A stretch of 64,000 nt of DNA from Anaerolineae bacterium (GTDB lineage Bacteria > Desulfobacterota > Desulfobacteria > Desulfobacterales > ETH-SRB1). The notes below the pieces were generated by a model that made no database searches, was not told the origin of the DNA, and was given only the letters and a program-made list of their open reading frames with translations. This document shows, one piece after another, positions 37,182-47,513 of the stretch (the stretch's first letter is position 1; every line of letters starts with the position of its first letter). The stretch covers positions 1 to 64,000 of the forward strand of contig DATKWZ010000037.1 of the NCBI GenBank assembly GCA_035529315.1. The letters are read 5' to 3'. Position numbers and translations under genes: made by a program.

Positions 37182-38954
37182 ATGGTATTTAATGTTTTAC
37201 TTTATACATCCCTGTTTGTCTTCATCTTCGGCCTTATCTACAGGATTAGCACCTGGTTCTCCTGGAAAATCGGCATTTCATCCGGAGATATCGGCAAGTC
37301 CGAAAGACTGGCTGCGGCTTTTAAAGGTATGCTGGGAGTTATTTTCAGCGCAAAAATCCTTATCCTTATTAAGGTATTTATCCTTGATGTGGTGTTTCAA
37401 AAAAGGATTCTCAAAGAGGATTTTCTCCGCTGGGCCATGCATATGCTCATATACACAGGTTTTATGTTATTACTGCTCATGCATGCGCTTGACGAGCATA
37501 TAACCGCCTCTCTGTTCAGTGAATATTACTCCACATTAAATCCATTTCTTTTTCTGCGAAATTTTTTTGGCATCATGGTAATTGCAGGGCTTGCGATCGC
37601 CATATACCGGCGCTTTATCCTGAAGGTACCTCGCCTGAAGACAAACAGCATGGATTATTATGCCATAATTATTCTTGTCGTTATTATGATTTCCGGTTTT
37701 TTTCTTGAAGCAACAAAAATCACATCTATCTCTGATTTTGAAAGAATGGTAAATGAGTTCTCAGATGTGGATGAAGAAAAGGATCTCATAGCGCTTGAAA
37801 GTCTGTGGGTCCATGAATTTGGAACTGTTTCTCCGGATCTTAAGGAGCCCTTTGAGCAAAAGCTGCTTGAACATGGCCGTGAAATCCACGAAACAAATTG
37901 CGCTTCCTGTCATTCTTCTCCAAAATGGGCAGCTGCAGGATATGCTCTGGCCAATATTCTAAATCCAATAGCCTTAAGCCTGGACAGGGCAAAAGGCCCC
38001 AACATTCTATGGTATATTCATATACTGGTCTGCTTTTTCGGGCTGGCATATCTTCCGTTCAGCAAAATGTTTCACATAATCGCCGGCCCCATAAGTTTAC
38101 TTACCAATGCTGTTATGGAAAAGGAAAGCTCACATCCTGCAAATATTGCGACAAGACAGGTGATGGAGCTGGATGCATGTACCCATTGCGGAACCTGCAG
38201 CCTTGGATGTTCCGCTGCAACGGCATTTGACGCTTTGGGCAATGAAAATATTCTGCCGTCGGAAAAGATGGTTTCTCTAAAGAGTTTAATTGCCGGGCAA
38301 AAACTAAGTTCTGAAAAGATGAAAGCCGTCCAGGAGGGGATTTGCCTTTGCACGAATTGCGATCGATGCACCGTGGTTTGTCCTGTAGGAATCAATCTTA
38401 AGGAATTATGGCTTAACGTGCGAGAGGATTTAATCCAAAAAGGATATCCTGAACCGCTGCTCCTTTCCCCCTTTTCTTTTGCCAGAGGCTTAAACCGTTA
38501 TGATATACCGGCTGACAAGTATTATAAACCTGTTGAGGCCGCAAAACAGGCAGTGGCAGGAAAATTTGATTCGCTGATTAAGCAAAGCCCTCTGGTTCTC
38601 AATGGTGGGGGTATCAAGGAATTTAATCAACTATCCAAAGACAATACATTTGCATATTGCTTTAGCTGCCGGAACTGCACCAGCATATGTCCCGTGGTAT
38701 GCAGTTTTGATAAACCTGAAGAGGCGCTGGGACTGCTGCCGCATCAAATTATGCGCTGTCTCGGCCTTGGCCTTGTTGAAATGGCATCAGGCGCAAGCAT
38801 GATATGGAACTGTTCGACCTGTTATCAATGCCAGGAACACTGTCCACAGAACGTAAATGTCACGGATCTTTTTTTTCAATTGAAAAATATAGCTGTCAAA
38901 AATGTAAAAAAAGCATCAAACGAAAAAGAATTATCACAACGACATGAAACTTAA
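37182..38954 (+). CDS. Membrane-anchored HdrC/HdrE-like iron-sulfur protein with c-type heme motif
   Basis: A 590-aa protein. Five NarI/HdrE-like transmembrane segments (about residues 3-165) come first. A periplasm-type loop with CASCH, a c-type heme site (about 240), follows, then a sixth membrane segment (about 270-300). The cytoplasmic part has four [4Fe-4S] motifs arranged as two HdrC-like pairs: CTHCGTCSLGC with CTNCDRCTVVCP, and CFSCRNCTSICP with CSTCYQCQEHCP. It is first of the Hdr operon, followed by hdrB. It probably links quinone or periplasmic cytochrome c to the cytoplasmic Hdr complex, in the manner of DsrMK or Tmc/Hmc subunits. Confidence 0.85.
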   Translation: MVFNVLLYTSLFVFIFGLIYRISTWFSWKIGISSGDIGKSERLAAAFKGMLGVIFSAKILILIKVFILDVVFQKRILKEDFLRWAMHMLIYTGFMLLLLMHALDEHITASLFSEYYSTLNPFLFLRNFFGIMVIAGLAIAIYRRFILKVPRLKTNSMDYYAIIILVVIMISGFFLEATKITSISDFERMVNEFSDVDEEKDLIALESLWVHEFGTVSPDLKEPFEQKLLEHGREIHETNCASCHSSPKWAAAGYALANILNPIALSLDRAKGPNILWYIHILVCFFGLAYLPFSKMFHIIAGPISLLTNAVMEKESSHPANIATRQVMELDACTHCGTCSLGCSAATAFDALGNENILPSEKMVSLKSLIAGQKLSSEKMKAVQEGICLCTNCDRCTVVCPVGINLKELWLNVREDLIQKGYPEPLLLSPFSFARGLNRYDIPADKYYKPVEAAKQAVAGKFDSLIKQSPLVLNGGGIKEFNQLSKDNTFAYCFSCRNCTSICPVVCSFDKPEEALGLLPHQIMRCLGLGLVEMASGASMIWNCSTCYQCQEHCPQNVNVTDLFFQLKNIAVKNVKKASNEKELSQRHET

Positions 38955-39032: not shown

Positions 39033-39932
39033 ATGATCAAATATGCATTATTTTTGGGATGCAATATACCGGCAAGGGTAAGCTGGTATGAAGATTCTTC
39101 CAGAGCGGTTTTAAAGAACCTGGGCGTGGAGCTGATTGACATCCGAGGCTTTAACTGCTGCGGCTATCCCCTGAAAAATATCGACCAAAGAGCATATATT
39201 CTGTCTTCAGCAAAAAACCTGGCATTGGCTGAAAAGCAAGGCCTGAACATACTGACTCTGTGCAAATGCTGTTTCGGAAGCCTGAAAAAGGTTGAATATC
39301 TTCTCAAAGAGGATTCAAATCTGCGGCAGGATATAAACCGCTTGCTCGCTGATAGTGGCTTGAAATATGAGGGCAACATCGCTGTAAAACATTTTCTTTC
39401 GGTCCTTTATCATGATGTGGGTATTGATGCCATAAAAAGCAGGTTGTCCGGTTCATATAAAGATCTCAGAATCGCCGCCCATTATGGATGCCATGCCCTG
39501 CGTCCCAGCAGAATCACCCGGTTTGACGATCCAGTTGCGCCAACTATATTTGATGAGCTGGTGGAGATAACCGGCGCCATATCTGTTGACTGGCCCCAAA
39601 AACTGGAATGCTGCGGAGCCCCTTTAACAGGCATAAATGATGATATCTCGATTAATTTGACAAAAAAGAAGGTGTTGGATGCTAAAAAATCAGGCGCCGA
39701 CTACCTGTGCACTGCCTGTCCGTTCTGCCATCTGCAATTCGATACTATTCAAAAGAAGGTGGCTTCTAACAACGGAAACAGCGAATATCTTGCCCCTGTT
39801 CTTTATTCCCAGCTTCTTGGGCTGTGCATGGGCATTGATCAGGAGACTCTTGGAATCAATAAAAACAAACTTGATATCAACGAAATTAAATCTTTTATAG
39901 ATTCAGCCACAGACCCACATAGACCCACATAA
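39033..39932 (+). CDS. hdrB: Heterodisulfide reductase subunit B homologue
   Basis: A 299-aa catalytic-type subunit with two CCG domains. Cysteine motifs include [38 protein letters not shown] and CPFCHLQ. These are ligands of the paired noncubane [4Fe-4S] clusters that cleave a disulfide in HdrB. In a sulfate reducer the likely substrate is a DsrC-type disulfide or trisulfide rather than CoM-S-S-CoB. The last ten residues (SATDPHRPT) and the stop are encoded by an intergenic inverted repeat. Confidence 0.92.
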
Positions 39933-39979
39933 ACAAGATAAAGAAAGTAAAGTGTTTGTCCTTGTGTGTCTGTGGCTGA
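39903..39979. repeat. Inverted repeat at the hdrB-hdrA junction
   Basis: tcagccacagac (39903-39914) and gtctgtggctga (39968-39979) are exact complements. The left arm lies inside the hdrB reading frame, 18 bases before its stop. Confidence 0.7.
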
Positions 39980-40008
39980 GAATTAATAATAACTTTAGGA
40001 ACATAAAG

Positions 40009-43000
40009 ATGTCGGAAAATAAAACAGGCTCGGTTATGGTGATAGGCGCGGGAATCGCCGGAATGCAGGCAGCATTGGATCTGGCTGATTCCGGTTATTA
40101 TGTCTATCTTGTGGAAAGGTCAAGCTCGATCGGCGGCATGATGTCGCAGCTTGATAAGACCTTTCCCACCAATGACTGCGCAATGTGAGTTATCTCACCT
40201 AAACTGGTCGAGGTCGGCCGGCACATCAACATTGAGCTGCTTACCCTTTCCGAGGTAAACTCGGTTTCCGGCAAGCAGGGGAATTTTGAGGTAAACATAA
40301 CGCAGCACCCGCGTTATGTTGATCCTGACAGGTGTATTGCGTGCGGCCTTTGTGCAGAAAAATGCCCTAAAAAAGTACCTGCTGAGCATGATGAAGGATT
40401 GGGCATGCGCAAAGCCATCTATGTGAAGTATCCACAGGCTGTTCCTTTAAAATACGCCATTGACGCAAAAAATTGCATCTACTTTAAAAAGGGGAAATGC
40501 AGAATATGCGAAAAATTCTGCCCTAACAATGCTATAAATTTTAAGGATCAAAAAAGGGAGGTTACCCTGAAAACAGGGGCAATTATCCTTGCCCTGGGCA
40601 GCAAGATCTTTGATCCGGGAACCCATGATACATACGGCTATAAAAAATCACCCAATATTGTAACAAGCCTGGAATTTGAAAGGATTTTATCATCATCCGG
40701 GCCTTATGGCGGACATCTCGTTTCCTCCCCGGACAATAATGAACCTGAAAAGATTGCCTGGCTTCAATGCGTAGGATCCAGGGATGAACGCCCGGGCTCT
40801 AAAGGATACTGCTCTGCTGTCTGCTGCACCTATGCTGTTAAACAGGCCATGCTGGCCAAGGAACATACTAAAAAAAATCTGGATGCAGCTATTTTCTATA
40901 TAGACATCCGTACAAACGGAAAGGACTTTGAGAAATATTATAACCGGGCAAAGGATGAGGCCGGCGTACGTTTCATTAAATCGAAAATTACAAACATTAC
41001 AGAACTTGATGGAAAGCACCTTATATCCTATGTGGATGAAGCAGGCAAAAGAATCGAAGAATTATTCGACATGGTAGTATTGTCTGTAGGGCTCGGAGTA
41101 TCAGGAGAAGCCGTAAATCTTGCCCAAAAACTGGACATAAAACTTAATCATTACGGCTTTGCGGGCTCCGGCAGTTTTGAGCCTGTTGCCAGCTCCAGAC
41201 CTGGCATCTATGTTTGTGGCGCATTTCAGGCTCCCAAGGATATTCCGTCGTCGGTTATAGATGCCAGCGCTGCCGCAGGTCTGGCTGGAAGCAAACTGGC
41301 CGACTACAGGTGGACCCTCACAAAAACAAAACATATCCCCGAAGAAATCGATGTCCGCGGAGAACCTCCCAGAATCGGCGTGTTTGTATGCCGCTGCGGA
41401 TCAAATATCGCGGGCGTTGTTGATGTTCCAGCAGTTGTCGAATTTGCTCAAAGTCTGCCCTATGTGGTCTATGCCGAAGAAAATATGTTCAGTTGTTCTC
41501 AGGACACACAGGATAAAATCACAGAGATTATTAAAAACAAACGACTAAACAGGGTTGTTGTGGCAGCCTGTACGCCAAGAACTCATGAACCGCTTTTTCA
41601 GGAAACATTAATCAATGCTGGCATTAATAAATACCTTTTCGAGATGGCCAATATCCGCAACCAGTGCTCCTGGGTTCATAAAGATGATAAAGAAAAGGCC
41701 ACGGAAAAGGCTAAAAATCTGGTTAAAATGGCTGTGGCAAAGGTTGCCCTGCTTGCCCCTCTTGAAGAACCTTCAATGCAAATCAACCAGAATGTGCTGG
41801 TCATCGGAGGCGGAATAGCCGGCATGGTGGCAGCCAAAAATCTGGCAGACCAGGGCTACCGGATCTTTTTAATTGAAAAGGCTGATTCACTTGGCGGGCA
41901 GGCGCGTCATCTACATGAAACATGGCAAGGAGAAGACATTCAACAATATTTATCCGGTCTGATAAAAGAGGTGCAATCTGATAAAAGCACAGAGATATTT
42001 TTAAATTCCCACATAAAACAGGTGGATGGTTTTGTGGGAAATTTTAAGACAACAATCGAAAATAACAGCAAGAGCATAGTACTGGAACACGGAATAACGA
42101 TCATTGCCTCAGGCGCCTCGGAATTCGTGCCGGATCAGTATCTCTATGGCAATGACAGACGTGTTGTAACCGGGCTGGAACTCCAGCAGCGTTTCATCAA
42201 CAAAGACCCCTCGCTGACACAACTCAATACCGCGGTATTTATCCAGTGCGTTGGTTCACGCATTCCAGAGCGACCTTTTTGCTCAAAGGTCTGCTGCACA
42301 CAATCCATTAAAAGCGCCGTAAAACTCAAAGAGATTAAACCCACAATGGAGGTCTTCGTGCTATACAGGGATATGCGCCCATATGGGCTGCGAGAGGATT
42401 TGTATAGAAAGGCGCGCTCTATCGGGATTAACTTTATCCGCTACGACTTTGGCAAGGAGCTTGCCGTAGAAGCAGACAACGGAAATCTGCGGATTGCTTT
42501 CATTGATTGCGTGCTAAAGCGAAAGATGGTAATACAGCCTGACATTTTAATACTGGCCGCTGCTATTGTTCCGGAAAAAGTAAACAGGCTGGCGCAGCTT
42601 TATAAAGTAACGCAAAATGAGGATGGATTTTTTGCGGAGGCGCATGTTAAACTAAGGCCTGTTGATTTTGCAACAGGCGGAGTGTTTCTATGCGGGCTTG
42701 CTCATGCCCCTAAATCAATAGATGAATCAATAACTCAGGCCCAGGCCGCAGCATCGAGAGCTGTTACACTTTTATCCGCGAAGAGCATCTCTGCCGACGG
42801 AACAGTGGCCTGTGTGAGCCCGAACTTATGCAGCAGTTGCGGTGTTTGTGTATCAATATGCCCATATTCTGCCGCCCTGTTTAATGAAAAAAGCGGCAAG
42901 GCCGAAATTAAACCGACATTGTGCAAAGGGTGCGGTCTTTGCACCGCGTCCTGCAGATCAGGGGCTATTAATCTAAAAGGATTTGATAATGAGCAGATCT

Positions 43001-43053
43001 TTGCGCAGATATTTGCAATGAATGAAGAAGAAGGAGTTTTCAATAATGCCTGA
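40009..43053 (+). CDS. hdrA: HdrA-like flavoprotein, double length, selenocysteine-containing
   Basis: An electron-bifurcating-type flavin subunit of 1014 aa, if the in-frame TGA at 40186-40188 is read as Sec. It falls exactly where HdrA has the second conserved Cys ([17 protein letters not shown] for the usual NDCSMC-ILAPK). Order: FAD domain 1 ([12 protein letters not shown]), an inserted ferredoxin ([21 protein letters not shown]), the HdrA N-domain-like block ([15 protein letters not shown]), FAD domain 2 ([15 protein letters not shown]) and a terminal 2x[4Fe-4S] ferredoxin ([23 protein letters not shown]). The start at 40009 has AGGA. It overlaps mvhD by eight bases. Confidence 0.93.
40186..40221 (+). 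promoter_or_regulatory. UGA(Sec) codon with SECIS-like hairpin in hdrA
   Basis: The stem CTGGTC (40204-40209) pairs with GGCCGG (40216-40221) using G-U pairs. The six-base loop GAGGTC begins 21 bases after the TGA. Its GGTC resembles the E. coli fdhF SECIS loop, and the distance fits bacterial SECIS elements. Confidence 0.7.
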
Positions 43054-43483
43054 TTGGGAACCAAAAATTGTAGCTTTTCTTTGCAGCTGGTGCAGTTATG
43101 GAGCTGCCGATCTTGCCGGGGTCAGTCGTTTGCAGTATCCACCGAACTTAAGGGTTATCAGGATCCCCTGTACCGGCCGGATGAGCCCGAAGTTTATTTT
43201 AACTGCTTTCAGGCAGGGGGCTGACGGTGTCTGGGTTTCCGGGTGACATCCCGGGGAATGCCATTACCTGGAAGGTAATTATTATGCCCGCAGAAAGTTT
43301 ACACTCTTTAAAAGCCTTTTGGAACACACAGGAATTGAGTCCGGCCGGATCTTTTTTTCATGGGTCTCATCATCTGAAGCAAACAGATTTGCGCGACTTG
43401 CATCAGAAATCACCTCAAAGGTTAAGGATCTGGGGCCAAACAATAATTATATAAAACAAAGGCCTGTCAAGGTAGCATGTTAA
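43046..43483 (+). CDS. MvhD/FlxD-family [2Fe-2S] subunit, selenocysteine-containing
   Basis: A 145-aa subunit that passes electrons into HdrA. The family pattern is clear: [29 protein letters not shown], then [17 protein letters not shown]. The TGA at 43244-43246 (residue 67) replaces the cysteine of the usual GCHPGDCHY. The frame stays open for 78 further codons of good family sequence, to the TAA at 43481. The start at 43046 has AAGGAG and overlaps hdrA; the end overlaps the next gene. Known Sec counterparts are VhuD-type proteins of methanogens. Confidence 0.92.
43244..43279 (+). promoter_or_regulatory. UGA(Sec) codon with SECIS-like hairpin in mvhD
   Basis: ATTACC (43263-43268) and GGTAAT (43274-43279) form a six-pair stem with loop TGGAA, starting 16 bases after the TGA. 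The loop is less typical than that in hdrA. Confidence 0.55.
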
Positions 43484-44421
43484 AATATATTGATACGATA
43501 AGAAAAATATCCAAGCGGCTCTTAAAGGAAAAAACAGTCGATATGGTAATAGGTTTCCGTAAGGGAACAGTGCCGATGATAAATGAGCCATGTTTTACAA
43601 ACAAACCGGATGATGTGGATAGTCTGGTTTGGGACAGTAACTGCGGAATCAACCTGGCAAACTATCTAACCAACAGAAAGGAAAAAATTGCCATTATTGC
43701 CAAGGGATGCGATTCAAGAAACATTATTACACATATAATTGAAAACAAGGTTAAAAGAGATCAACTGTTTATTATTGGAGTGCCGTGCAAGGGGATGATC
43801 GACAGGCATAAGATTGCATCGATGTTTGAAGAGGAAATAATCGAGGTTGCGGAAGAGGGAAATATTGTCATTGTTAAGAGTGCTGGTTTTGAAAAAAGGC
43901 TGGAAAAATCAGAGATCCTGCAGGAAAACTGCGCAGTATGCATCCACCGCAATCCTGTTATATACGATGAACTTGTTGCCGAACCCGTAAAGGAACAGAC
44001 AGAGATTGACAGATATAAAGATGTGCGCAGGATCGAAGAGATGCGGGTGGAAGAAAAAAATAATTTTTTTGACAATCTCCTTTCACCCTGCATCCGCTGC
44101 TATGCATGCAGAAATGCATGTCCCCTTTGCTACTGCCCCACATGCTTTGTGGACGAATCCCGGCCTCAGTGGTTAGGAAAAAGCATTGATCCCACAGACA
44201 TTAAAACCTTCCATTTACTGAGGGCTTTTCACTGCGCCGGCAGGTGCACGGATTGCGGCGCCTGCCAGCGTGCTTGCCCAATGGGTATAAATGTCAGAAT
44301 ATTTACAAAAAAACTGGAAAAGGATTGTTTTGAATTATATGGCTGGGAATCAGGCCTGTCCCTGAAGGAACGCCCCCCTCTTGATACATACAAACCTGAT
44401 GATCCGGATTTAGGAATTTAA
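43477..44421 (+). CDS. FrhB-like/FlxC-like iron-sulfur subunit
   Basis: A 314-aa protein. The first 170 residues resemble the FrhB/FdhB-type domain (IGFRKGTVPMINEP; IIAKGCDSRNIITHI). The C-terminal part holds two [4Fe-4S] motifs (CIRCYACRNACP and CTDCGACQRACP) plus a CYCPTC between them. The start overlaps the mvhD end. By position it is an electron-input or wiring subunit of the Hdr-Flox-type complex. The exact equivalence with FlxC is inference. Confidence 0.8.
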   Translation: MLKYIDTIRKISKRLLKEKTVDMVIGFRKGTVPMINEPCFTNKPDDVDSLVWDSNCGINLANYLTNRKEKIAIIAKGCDSRNIITHIIENKVKRDQLFIIGVPCKGMIDRHKIASMFEEEIIEVAEEGNIVIVKSAGFEKRLEKSEILQENCAVCIHRNPVIYDELVAEPVKEQTEIDRYKDVRRIEEMRVEEKNNFFDNLLSPCIRCYACRNACPLCYCPTCFVDESRPQWLGKSIDPTDIKTFHLLRAFHCAGRCTDCGACQRACPMGINVRIFTKKLEKDCFELYGWESGLSLKERPPLDTYKPDDPDLGI

Positions 44422-44428
44422 GCATACC

Positions 44429-45475
44429 ATGAAGATCATAAGAATTGACAAGAAAAATTGGGCCGAAGATATTGAAAATTTAAGTGGATCTTACCGATTA
44501 TTCGGCCCTGTTAAGGATAATAGCTCTCATATGTTTAAAGAGCTTAATAAGGGGGAGTTGCCGGATTTAAATTATTTCAACACAACCCTTTCACCCAAAT
44601 CGATTATTTATCCTCAGTCTGAGGTTATGCTTGAATATAGCCTGGATGAAAACAAAGAAAATCATCATGTAATGAAAGAGGTAAAAAAGGATTATTCCCA
44701 ACGCGCTGTGATCGGGATCAGACCATGTGATGCAGCGGCTTTTTCATTGGTCAAACGCAACTTCAACACCCCTGAATATAAGGACCCATACTGGACAAGG
44801 GCTTATGAGACAACCACATTTGTCGGGCTTGCATGCAACAACCCGCAGACCACATGTTTCTGCCGAACCGCCGGCAACGGCCCTTTTCATGAAGATGGAC
44901 TTGATGTTCTCCTTATAGATATGGGAGATCATTTTTTTGCAAAAATAATTTCTTCAAAGGGTGAAACCCTGTTAAAGGCTGCCGGATGGAAAACCGAAAC
45001 TGATGCCGAGACCAGCGGCAATCTGGTTGCAGCCATGAAACAGAAAGCAGAAGACGCAATAACCGCATCTGTTTTTACAGATAAATTAAAGAACAAAAAA
45101 ATTACCGACCTTTTTGACGCCCCATTTTGGGAAGAGCTGGCTTTTGCATGCATAAACTGCGGAACATGCACATATGTTTGCCCGACATGCTGGTGTTTCG
45201 ACATTCAGGATGAAATTTACGGGCTCTGCGGCATACGCATGCGGAATTGGGACAGCTGCATGTTTCCTCTTTTTACTCTACATGGATCAGGGCATAATCC
45301 AAGAAATACAAACATGCAGAGGCTCCGGCAGAGGTTTATGCACAAACTGAAATATTATGTGGACAAATACGGCAATGGGATTCAATGTGTCGGATGCGGT
45401 CGATGCATACGTCTGTGTCCGGTAAATATCGACATACGAAAAGTTTGTGATTTGATGAACAGTTATAGTGCCTAA
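44429..45475 (+). CDS. HydB/AsrA-like (FlxB-like) iron-sulfur subunit
   Basis: A 348-aa protein of the sulfhydrogenase beta / anaerobic sulfite reductase A type. It has IGIRPCDAAAFSLV, TCFCRTAGNGP and two [4Fe-4S] motifs (CINCGTCTYVCP with CWCF, and CVGCGRCIRLCP). It lies seven bases after the previous gene and precedes the FAD/NAD subunit, the same pairing as HydB-HydG or AsrA-AsrB. It carries electrons between the flavin subunit and HdrA. The stop codon falls in the first bases of a dispersed repeat (agtgcctaaa). Confidence 0.88.
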   Translation: MKIIRIDKKNWAEDIENLSGSYRLFGPVKDNSSHMFKELNKGELPDLNYFNTTLSPKSIIYPQSEVMLEYSLDENKENHHVMKEVKKDYSQRAVIGIRPCDAAAFSLVKRNFNTPEYKDPYWTRAYETTTFVGLACNNPQTTCFCRTAGNGPFHEDGLDVLLIDMGDHFFAKIISSKGETLLKAAGWKTETDAETSGNLVAAMKQKAEDAITASVFTDKLKNKKITDLFDAPFWEELAFACINCGTCTYVCPTCWCFDIQDEIYGLCGIRMRNWDSCMFPLFTLHGSGHNPRNTNMQRLRQRFMHKLKYYVDKYGNGIQCVGCGRCIRLCPVNIDIRKVCDLMNSYSA

Positions 45476-45664: not shown

Positions 45665-46510
45665 ATGCAAAATCCATATCTGCCTTATCCGGTTCGTATA
45701 GAGGAAATAATAACCGAAACCGAAGATAAAAACATTAAAACATTCAAGCTGGTCTTTTTAAACCCTGATGACGAAAAGAATTTTTCATATAAGGCAGGAC
45801 AGTTTGCAGAGCTTTCAGTGGCGGGAAAAGGAGAGGCGCCCATAGGAATTGCATCTTCACCCACGGAAAAAGGATATCTGATGTTTACCATCAACAAGGC
45901 CGGGCTGGTTACAACCGCCCTGCATTGCATGAAACCTGGGGACATTATCGGTATTCGCGGACCTCTCGGCAACAGTTATCACTGGGATATCCTTGAAGGA
46001 AAAAATATTGTCATAATCGGCGGCGGCTTTGCCTTTACCACGCTTCGCTCCTCCATAGTATATATGCTTGATCCTGCGAATCGCCCGAATTTCAAAGAAA
46101 TCCATGTGATTTATGGCGCACGGTCTCCCGGAATGCTCCTTTACAGGGATGAACTTGCTGAGTGGGAAACTCGTGATGATATTAATATGCATATTACCGT
46201 GGACAGCACAGATGATCCGGACTGGAAATACAATGTAGGATTTGTACCAACAATCACCGAGCAGAAAGCGCCTCCGGCCACTGCAGACACCTACGCAATT
46301 ATTTGCGGCCCGCCGATCATGATTAAGTTTACCCAGCCGGTATTAGACAAGCTTGGCTACGCCCATGATCACATAATAATGTCCCTTGAAATGCGAATGA
46401 AGTGCGGCATTGGAATTTGCGGCAGGTGCAATATTGGAAAAGAATTCATATGCAAAGACGGACCGGTTTTTACGCTAGCCCAGCTAAACAGTATGCCAAA
46501 GGAATATTGA
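45665..46510 (+). CDS. FAD/NAD(P)-binding [2Fe-2S] subunit, FlxA/HydG/AsrB-like
   Basis: A 281-aa ferredoxin-NADP reductase-type module. The FAD domain (about 10-100) has GQFAELSV and GIASSP, and the NAD(P) domain VIIGGGFAFTTLRS and ICGPPIMIKF. A C-terminal [2Fe-2S] site like that of dihydroorotate dehydrogenase B follows (CGIGICGRC and CKDGPVF). It is likely the NAD(P)H-oxidising port of the Hdr complex. It is preceded by GGGGAATG and separated from the FlxB-like gene by a repeat of about 180 bases. Confidence 0.9.
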   Translation: MQNPYLPYPVRIEEIITETEDKNIKTFKLVFLNPDDEKNFSYKAGQFAELSVAGKGEAPIGIASSPTEKGYLMFTINKAGLVTTALHCMKPGDIIGIRGPLGNSYHWDILEGKNIVIIGGGFAFTTLRSSIVYMLDPANRPNFKEIHVIYGARSPGMLLYRDELAEWETRDDINMHITVDSTDDPDWKYNVGFVPTITEQKAPPATADTYAIICGPPIMIKFTQPVLDKLGYAHDHIIMSLEMRMKCGIGICGRCNIGKEFICKDGPVFTLAQLNSMPKEY

Positions 46511-46649: not shown

Positions 46650-46967
46650 ATGCCAACAGTTGAATTTATGGGTAAAACTTTTACCGTAGATGAGGACGGA
46701 TTTATTGATGATTTTAAAAATTGGTGCCCTGAGTGGGAACAGTGGGTGAAAAAGGAAGAGGGCATTGAAGAGCTCAATGAGGAACATAAAAAGCTTGTTG
46801 CAGTTCTTCGCGAATATTATGAAAAAAATGGAATTGCTCCAATGGTTCGAATACTTTCCAAGGTTACAGGATTCAAACTGAAACATATATATGAGCTTTA
46901 TCCGTCTGGACCAGGCAAGGGAGCATGTAAGATGGCCGGTCTTCCAAAACCTACAGGATGCGTCTAA
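46650..46967 (+). CDS. dsrC: DsrC, sulfur-carrier partner of dissimilatory sulfite reductase
   Basis: A 105-aa DsrC/TusE-family protein that carries a trisulfide made by DsrAB and is reduced by membrane complexes such as DsrMKJOP. Both redox cysteines of true DsrC are present in the flexible arm: Cys93 and the penultimate Cys104 (CKMAGLPKPTGCV). TusE proteins have only the latter. A strong AAGGAGG, a perfect promoter and a close terminator mark a monocistronic, highly expressed gene. dsrAB is not in the window. Confidence 0.97.
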   Translation: MPTVEFMGKTFTVDEDGFIDDFKNWCPEWEQWVKKEEGIEELNEEHKKLVAVLREYYEKNGIAPMVRILSKVTGFKLKHIYELYPSGPGKGACKMAGLPKPTGCV

Positions 46968-47057: not shown

Positions 47058-47513
47058 ATGTCTTCAATGGATGATATAGACAGAGAAATTCTAAACAGGA
47101 TACAGTCCGACTTTCCGATAACCCCCCGCCCCTATCTTACCGTGGCTAATGATCTGGGTCTTTCCGAAGATGATGTTTTAAAGCGACTTGCCGTGTTGAA
47201 GAAAAAAAGGATTATCAGGCGAATAGGGGGTAACTTTGTCCCTGAAAAATTAGGATTTGTCAGCACCCTCTGCGCAGCAAAGGTGCCGAAAAGTAAAATT
47301 GAATTCTTTGCTAAGGAAGTAAACAGCCATCCTGGAGTAACTCATAATTATAAACGGGATAACAGGTATAATATATGGTTTACCTTTATTGCTCCATCCA
47401 TGGAGGAAATAGAAAAAAACCTTAAAAAGATCTCCGATAAAACGGGAATAACAGACATTATCAATCTGCCTGCAACAAAGGTTTTTAAGATAAAGGCTCA
47501 CTTTGATCTATAG
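47058..47513 (+). CDS. ahbA: Siroheme decarboxylase subunit, AhbA-like (Lrp/AsnC family)
   Basis: A 151-aa protein. A winged-helix part (about 5-60) is followed by an AsnC-like domain with RIGGNFVPEKLGFVST and VTHNYKRDNRYNIWFT, typical of AhbA/NirD-type subunits that remove acetate side chains of siroheme. Sulfate reducers make heme by this Ahb route. Only one of the usual two paralogues is here, so its partner AhbB must be elsewhere. A regulatory Lrp function is less likely. Confidence 0.8.
   Translation: MSSMDDIDREILNRIQSDFPITPRPYLTVANDLGLSEDDVLKRLAVLKKKRIIRRIGGNFVPEKLGFVSTLCAAKVPKSKIEFFAKEVNSHPGVTHNYKRDNRYNIWFTFIAPSMEEIEKNLKKISDKTGITDIINLPATKVFKIKAHFDL

Follow-up and report, generated by a model that had tools for sequence, protein, structure and literature searches.

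Operons encoding a selenocysteine (Sec)-containing HdrA together with a Sec-containing FrhD/MvhD have been described in Deltaproteobacteria and methanogens (Zhang et al. 2006, PMC1794560), with Sec FrhD and HdrA numerous in Syntrophobacter, Syntrophus, Desulfotalea, and others, and a 2026 review (PMC13188914) lists a frhA-frhD-hdrA selenoprotein operon. For Desulfobacterium autotrophicum HRM2, the 2009 report (PMC2702500) gives Sec in hdrA1, hdrA2, hdrL1, hdrL3, and mvhD1, 2, 3, and 5, places an mvhD after nearly every hdrA or hdrL, and has Sec and Cys paralogues side by side. In the Flx-Hdr system the electrons come from NADH, and FlxD is the connector to the flavin of HdrA (PMC6019823, PMC12350162); FlxABCD-HdrABC of Desulfovibrio vulgaris is the subject of Ramos et al. 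2015 and, with its DsrC interaction, of Ferreira et al. 2023 (titles cited in PMC10553843).

The locus considered here lies in a window of 64,000 nucleotides, by which we mean the whole stretch of DNA that was analyzed; it belongs to a genome of 2.2 Mb that is 98% complete (G000). The genes at issue are the following.

37182 to 38954, + strand: membrane Hdr-like protein (HdrE/C, QmoC-like), with a NarI-like domain, CXXCH, and two 4Fe-4S dicluster domains
39033 to 39932, + strand: hdrB-like, with CCG domains
40009 to 43053, + strand: hdrA, 1014 aa, two thioredoxin-reductase-like domains
43046 to 43483, + strand: flpD/flxD (mvhD-like), a predicted selenoprotein of 145 aa, from matches to PF02662 and 5odc_D
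43477 to 44421, + strand: flxC-like 4Fe-4S protein, from a profile match and its position in the cluster
44429 to 45475, + strand: flxB-like 4Fe-4S protein (AsrA/HydB family)
45665 to 46510, + strand: flxA-like NAD(P)H/FAD protein (AsrB/HydG family)
46650 to 46967, + strand: dsrC, with C-terminal cysteines

The MvhD/FlxD identity that the original prediction gave to the gene after hdrA holds, and the gene lies within an hdrE/C-hdrB-hdrA-flxDCBA-dsrC cluster that continues with ahbA-like and nitrilase-like genes, in an order kept in relatives. The subunits FlxA, FlxB, FlxC, and FlxD adjoin hdrA and hdrB, as in a FlxABCD-HdrABC gene set. There is no soluble HdrC in the cluster; HdrC-like domains are fused to the NarI-like membrane domain, so that a membrane HdrE/C with a CXXCH haem-c motif takes its place. 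No hydrogenase genes (frhG/frhA) adjoin flxD on its downstream side, where flxC, flxB, flxA, and dsrC are found instead. dsrC comes directly after flxA, and a gene for an AhbA-type siroheme decarboxylase subunit (47058-47513) comes next.

The cluster is a variant of the Desulfovibrio Flx-Hdr form, one with a membrane-fused HdrC, and its homologies and gene order make an electron-bifurcating Flx-Hdr role probable. FlxD would be the [2Fe-2S] connector, of the MvhD family, of an Flx-Hdr complex in this member of the Desulfobacterales. Electrons would pass from NADH to FlxA, through the clusters of FlxB/C to FlxD, and on to the flavin of HdrA, from which they could proceed to ferredoxin on one side and, on the other, to HdrB and a DsrC-type disulfide (or to the membrane HdrE/C). 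Work by Ferreira and colleagues in 2023 reportedly concerns the interaction of DsrC with FlxABCD-HdrABC of Desulfovibrio vulgaris. By homology and gene order, DsrC is a likely disulfide partner here (PMC6470260).

The successive subunits HdrA and FlxD had been predicted to use Sec, and each gene does contain an in-frame TGA. Four short features matter in what follows.

40186 to 40188, + strand: TGA of hdrA, predicted Sec codon (U60), in NDCAM[U]VISPK, with TGA in orthologues
40204 to 40221, + strand: SECIS-like minihelix of hdrA, CUGGUCG-AGGU-CGGCCGG, from comparison
43244 to 43246, + strand: TGA of flxD, predicted Sec codon (codon 67), with TGA at the same position in orthologues
43263 to 43279, + strand: SECIS-like minihelix of flxD, AUUACC-UGGAA-GGUAAU, beginning 19 nt after the U of the UGA

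The flxD reading frame extends from 43046 to 43480, ends at a TAA (43481-43483), and encodes 145 residues if the TGA is read through. As predicted, the TGA replaces a Cys and is followed by 78 codons, exactly that number of sense codons being present; the motif, originally written as GCHPGDCHY, reads GUHPGECHY rather than GUHPGDCHY, within a local peptide that contains VSG[U]. The protein scores 178 bits against the Pfam FlpD profile (PF02662; cut-off for FlpD/MvhD membership, 22.3 bits), covering positions 1-123 of 123, and about half of its residues are identical to those of MvhD from Methanothermococcus thermolithotrophicus (5odc_D). The proposed alignment with MvhD proteins sets U67 opposite Cys67 of the latter. 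An AlphaFold2 model of FlxD (pLDDT 88) superposes on 5odc_D with a TM of 0.88 and an rmsd of 0.8. Positions 13, 16, 42, 67, and 72, all Cys apart from the Sec at 67 here, are invariant in a 24-row alignment in which Sec is written as C, and in the model they lie at or just past the ends of three central strands (8-13, 35-40, and 61-66), an arrangement consistent with a single metal site. The fold match to 5odc_D, together with PMC6019823, suggests that FlxD binds a [2Fe-2S] cluster, and in the model U67 most likely sits at or beside that site.

Could the TGA instead be a nonsense mutation or a sequencing error that truncates FlpD, whose work would then fall to Cys paralogues encoded at other loci of the genome? 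Five FlpD copies are present in this genome, and the other four do have Cys, as do several same-genus relatives at the codon 67 position, all of which would suit such an explanation. Against it, dozens of orthologues across many families of the order, one other species of the genus among them, have TGA at this codon, and the 78-codon tail is intact. The original prediction would have yielded to Cys-bearing relatives combined with a truncated product here; the relatives exist, but the product shows no truncation.

It would also have yielded to a genome that lacked selB and selC, and both are found. The machinery is complete, with a tRNA-Sec (selC, 72.5 bits), SelB (378 bits), and SelA (617 bits); ARAGORN detected no tRNA within the window, the tRNA-Sec being on a different contig. 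SelD of the same genome carries one in-frame TGA (G000:C49:17941-18867, L314). A molybdopterin oxidoreductase gene (G000:C30:104658-106304, L321) has an in-frame TGA too. Judged by sequence, the genome likely encodes at least four selenoproteins: HdrA, FlxD, SelD, and the molybdopterin oxidoreductase. General reassignment of TGA is excluded because hdrA itself terminates at an ordinary TGA, which overlaps the start of flxD.

Since Rfam at gathering thresholds gave no match anywhere in the 64-kb window, the SECIS-like elements were assessed by comparing alleles. Both minihelices have 6-7 pairs and a GG-containing loop and lie about +18 to +36 nt from the UGA (flxD, about +19 to +35; hdrA, about +18 to +35). 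Among Sec alleles the flxD helix is complete in 88 of 93 and the hdrA helix in 96 of 104; among Cys alleles the figures are 5 of 92 and 2 of 81. Across the codons that form the helix (+6 to +11 after the UGA), synonymous codon diversity in Sec alleles falls to 0.03-0.11 for FlpD and 0-0.09 for HdrA, from a background of 0.55-0.57; in Cys alleles the same codons range from 0.28 to 0.75. Some distant Sec FlpD and HdrA alleles retain the helix through changes on both of its sides. In the Sec flpD genes at L299-L301 and L260 (Desulfohalobiaceae-like), the common hairpin is replaced by one that is shifted and stronger (GCCACUAU...GUGGC). The single exact match of the SECIS 18-mer in viral contigs was rejected as chance, there being neither an FlpD-like context nor a TGA at the expected distance.

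Because orthologues have TGA at the same codons and the hairpins downstream are conserved, the flxD and hdrA TGAs are neither chance occurrences nor sequencing errors. Helix and synonymous-site conservation limited to Sec alleles, added to the machinery and the orthologues, leaves the truncation or error explanation of flxD effectively refuted. We put the probability that Sec is present in both FlxD (U67) and HdrA (U60) at about 95%. Both TGAs would be recoded by the standard bacterial SelA/SelB/tRNA-Sec system, and comparative genomics gives strong evidence that each UGA is guided by its own SECIS-type minihelix some 18-36 nt downstream.

Comparison with a same-genus genome in which both proteins have Cys (G069) brings out one further feature.

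39970 to 43540 (approximate), + strand: tract of low nucleotide identity to G069, the putative exchanged hdrA-flxD cassette

Identity within the tract is roughly 66-86%, mostly 74-82%, and on both sides about 90-99%; the edges fall near the start of hdrA (~39970) and just inside flxC (~43540). At the protein level, HdrA is 80% and FlxD 76% identical between the two genomes, and the flanking genes 91-97%. Fourfold-degenerate sites agree at 205 of 406 positions (50%) in hdrA and flxD versus 502 of 564 (89%) in the flanks (p = 9e-41). These comparisons are based on metagenome assemblies, but an assembly artefact is disfavored because a same-genus Sec/Sec genome (G440, isolate Yes71-19) matches the window without such a dip, with agreement at 399/482 fourfold sites in hdrA and flxD and 351/423 in the flanks. 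The gene trees are likewise discordant. With hdrA-flxD, the window and G440 fall outside all nine Cys pairs, and forcing the window to join G069 costs 547 log units; with the flanks, the window, G440, and G069 group together (support 99), and the pairing of window and G440 is unrejected (AU p = 0.30). Wherever else in the family both genes could be read from a single contig, the pair is Cys/Cys.

Joint exchange of the two genes is the simplest reading of the tract and the discordant trees, and from these comparisons we think it likely that hdrA and flxD have been swapped together, Sec/Sec for Cys/Cys or the reverse, within an otherwise conserved cluster. Either the window retained an old Sec pair while its relatives gained a Cys pair, or it regained Sec from an unsampled donor. 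Since the larger gene tree places these Cys alleles within groups of Sec alleles, the Cys pairs most likely derive from Sec pairs.

A divergent pair amid conserved flanks would also result, with no horizontal exchange, from an old tandem duplication of hdrA-flxD into a Sec and a Cys copy, followed by differential loss among species, and the coexistence of Sec and Cys paralogues in D. autotrophicum (PMC2702500) is in keeping with that history. Two close copies were seen in no family member searched, however, and another genome (G372) has a Cys/Cys pair 94% identical to its counterpart in a genome with which it shares only 72-73% identity in the flanks, a pattern that needs transfer, not loss. 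We regard duplication and loss as improbable and prefer exchange of the pair as one unit. At fourfold sites these two genomes, G372 and CSMAG2399, both Cys, agree at 372/466 positions in hdrA and flxD and at 111/256 in the flanks. Loci L233 and L084 have Cys/Cys hdrA-flpD pairs that are 94% identical, with hdrB and hdrE/C at 72-73%, a sign of between-family transfer. A literature search of limited coverage found no relevant paper on exchange of Sec and Cys by allele replacement.

A further check proposed with the original prediction was co-occurrence of Sec in hdrA and mvhD. The two are strongly paired: the close subfamily comprises 43 Sec/Sec and 20 Cys/Cys pairs, with 3 and 2 mixed pairs of the two kinds, UC and CU (Fisher p = 4e-12, relatedness ignored). 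The corresponding numbers in a wider set, a tree of 95 HdrA, are 41, 34, 14, and 6, and whole clades there have Sec in one partner only, so that the pairing is common and not obligatory. In a clade comprising L090, L101, and L177, a Sec FlpD adjoins a Cys HdrA; L101 also has a Sec HdrA module about 6 kb upstream.

Co-occurrence might reflect functional need, if both subunits had to switch together to keep their redox potentials matched or because they share a contact that depends on Sec. The subfamily counts point in that direction, as do same-way paired switches in the tree of 95 HdrA, which amount to about 4 independent comparisons versus 0.2 for opposite ones; yet a sign test on these is not significant (median p = 0.125), the 14 and 6 cases of Sec in a single partner run counter to such a need, and linkage would produce such a pattern too if the adjacent genes were exchanged as one cassette. 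We find functional need doubtful, and linkage through exchange of adjacent genes may explain much of the pairing. Co-occurrence of Sec in adjacent genes, in other words, can stem from linkage and not from functional coupling, and we offer this as a warning.

The locus adds a well-supported double-Sec case to the selenoproteome of the Desulfobacterota, and annotation that treats UGA as a stop truncates both hdrA and flxD. If the cassette is real, two selenocysteines can be gained or lost in a single step that leaves the neighboring genes unmoved, and selenoprotein pairs may spread or be lost through replacement of alleles, in addition to point mutation at each UGA. Close species with near-identical Flx-Hdr modules, differing mainly in whether HdrA-FlxD is Sec/Sec or Cys/Cys, constitute a natural experiment in which the benefit of Sec to an electron-bifurcating relay becomes more directly testable.

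Several described systems resemble this one in part. The operons of PMC1794560 share its adjacent selenoprotein genes, with hdrA ahead of the delta subunit, but there the partners are the frhG/frhA hydrogenase and glpC, whereas here they are FlxABC (NADH), dsrC, and a membrane HdrE/C. D. vulgaris FlxABCD-HdrABC reportedly has FlxA-D homologues as well, HdrA, HdrB, and DsrC as likely partner; it differs from the present cluster, in which flxDCBA follows hdrA, HdrA has two TrxR-like domains, a membrane HdrE/C stands in for soluble HdrC, and FlxD and HdrA are predicted to contain Sec. The available part of the HRM2 report (PMC2702500) describes no between-species swap of Sec and Cys in one orthologous pair. 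Methanogen MvhD/VhuD proteins (5odc_D, 7bkb_F, and 8rvu_F) have the same fold (TM 0.87-0.88), 50% identity, and the five Cys/Sec positions, and they link a hydrogenase, formate dehydrogenase, or Elp module to HdrABC. The parallel with the HdrA-VhuD pairing of methanogens that was originally proposed is documented in the literature (PMC1794560; PMC2702500), with the difference that at this locus the partner module is of the NADH-type Flx kind, close to dsrC, and not a hydrogenase. Double-Sec HdrA and MvhD in Desulfobacterota have been known since 2006, and the apparent exchange of Sec and Cys across two genes at once is the newer part.
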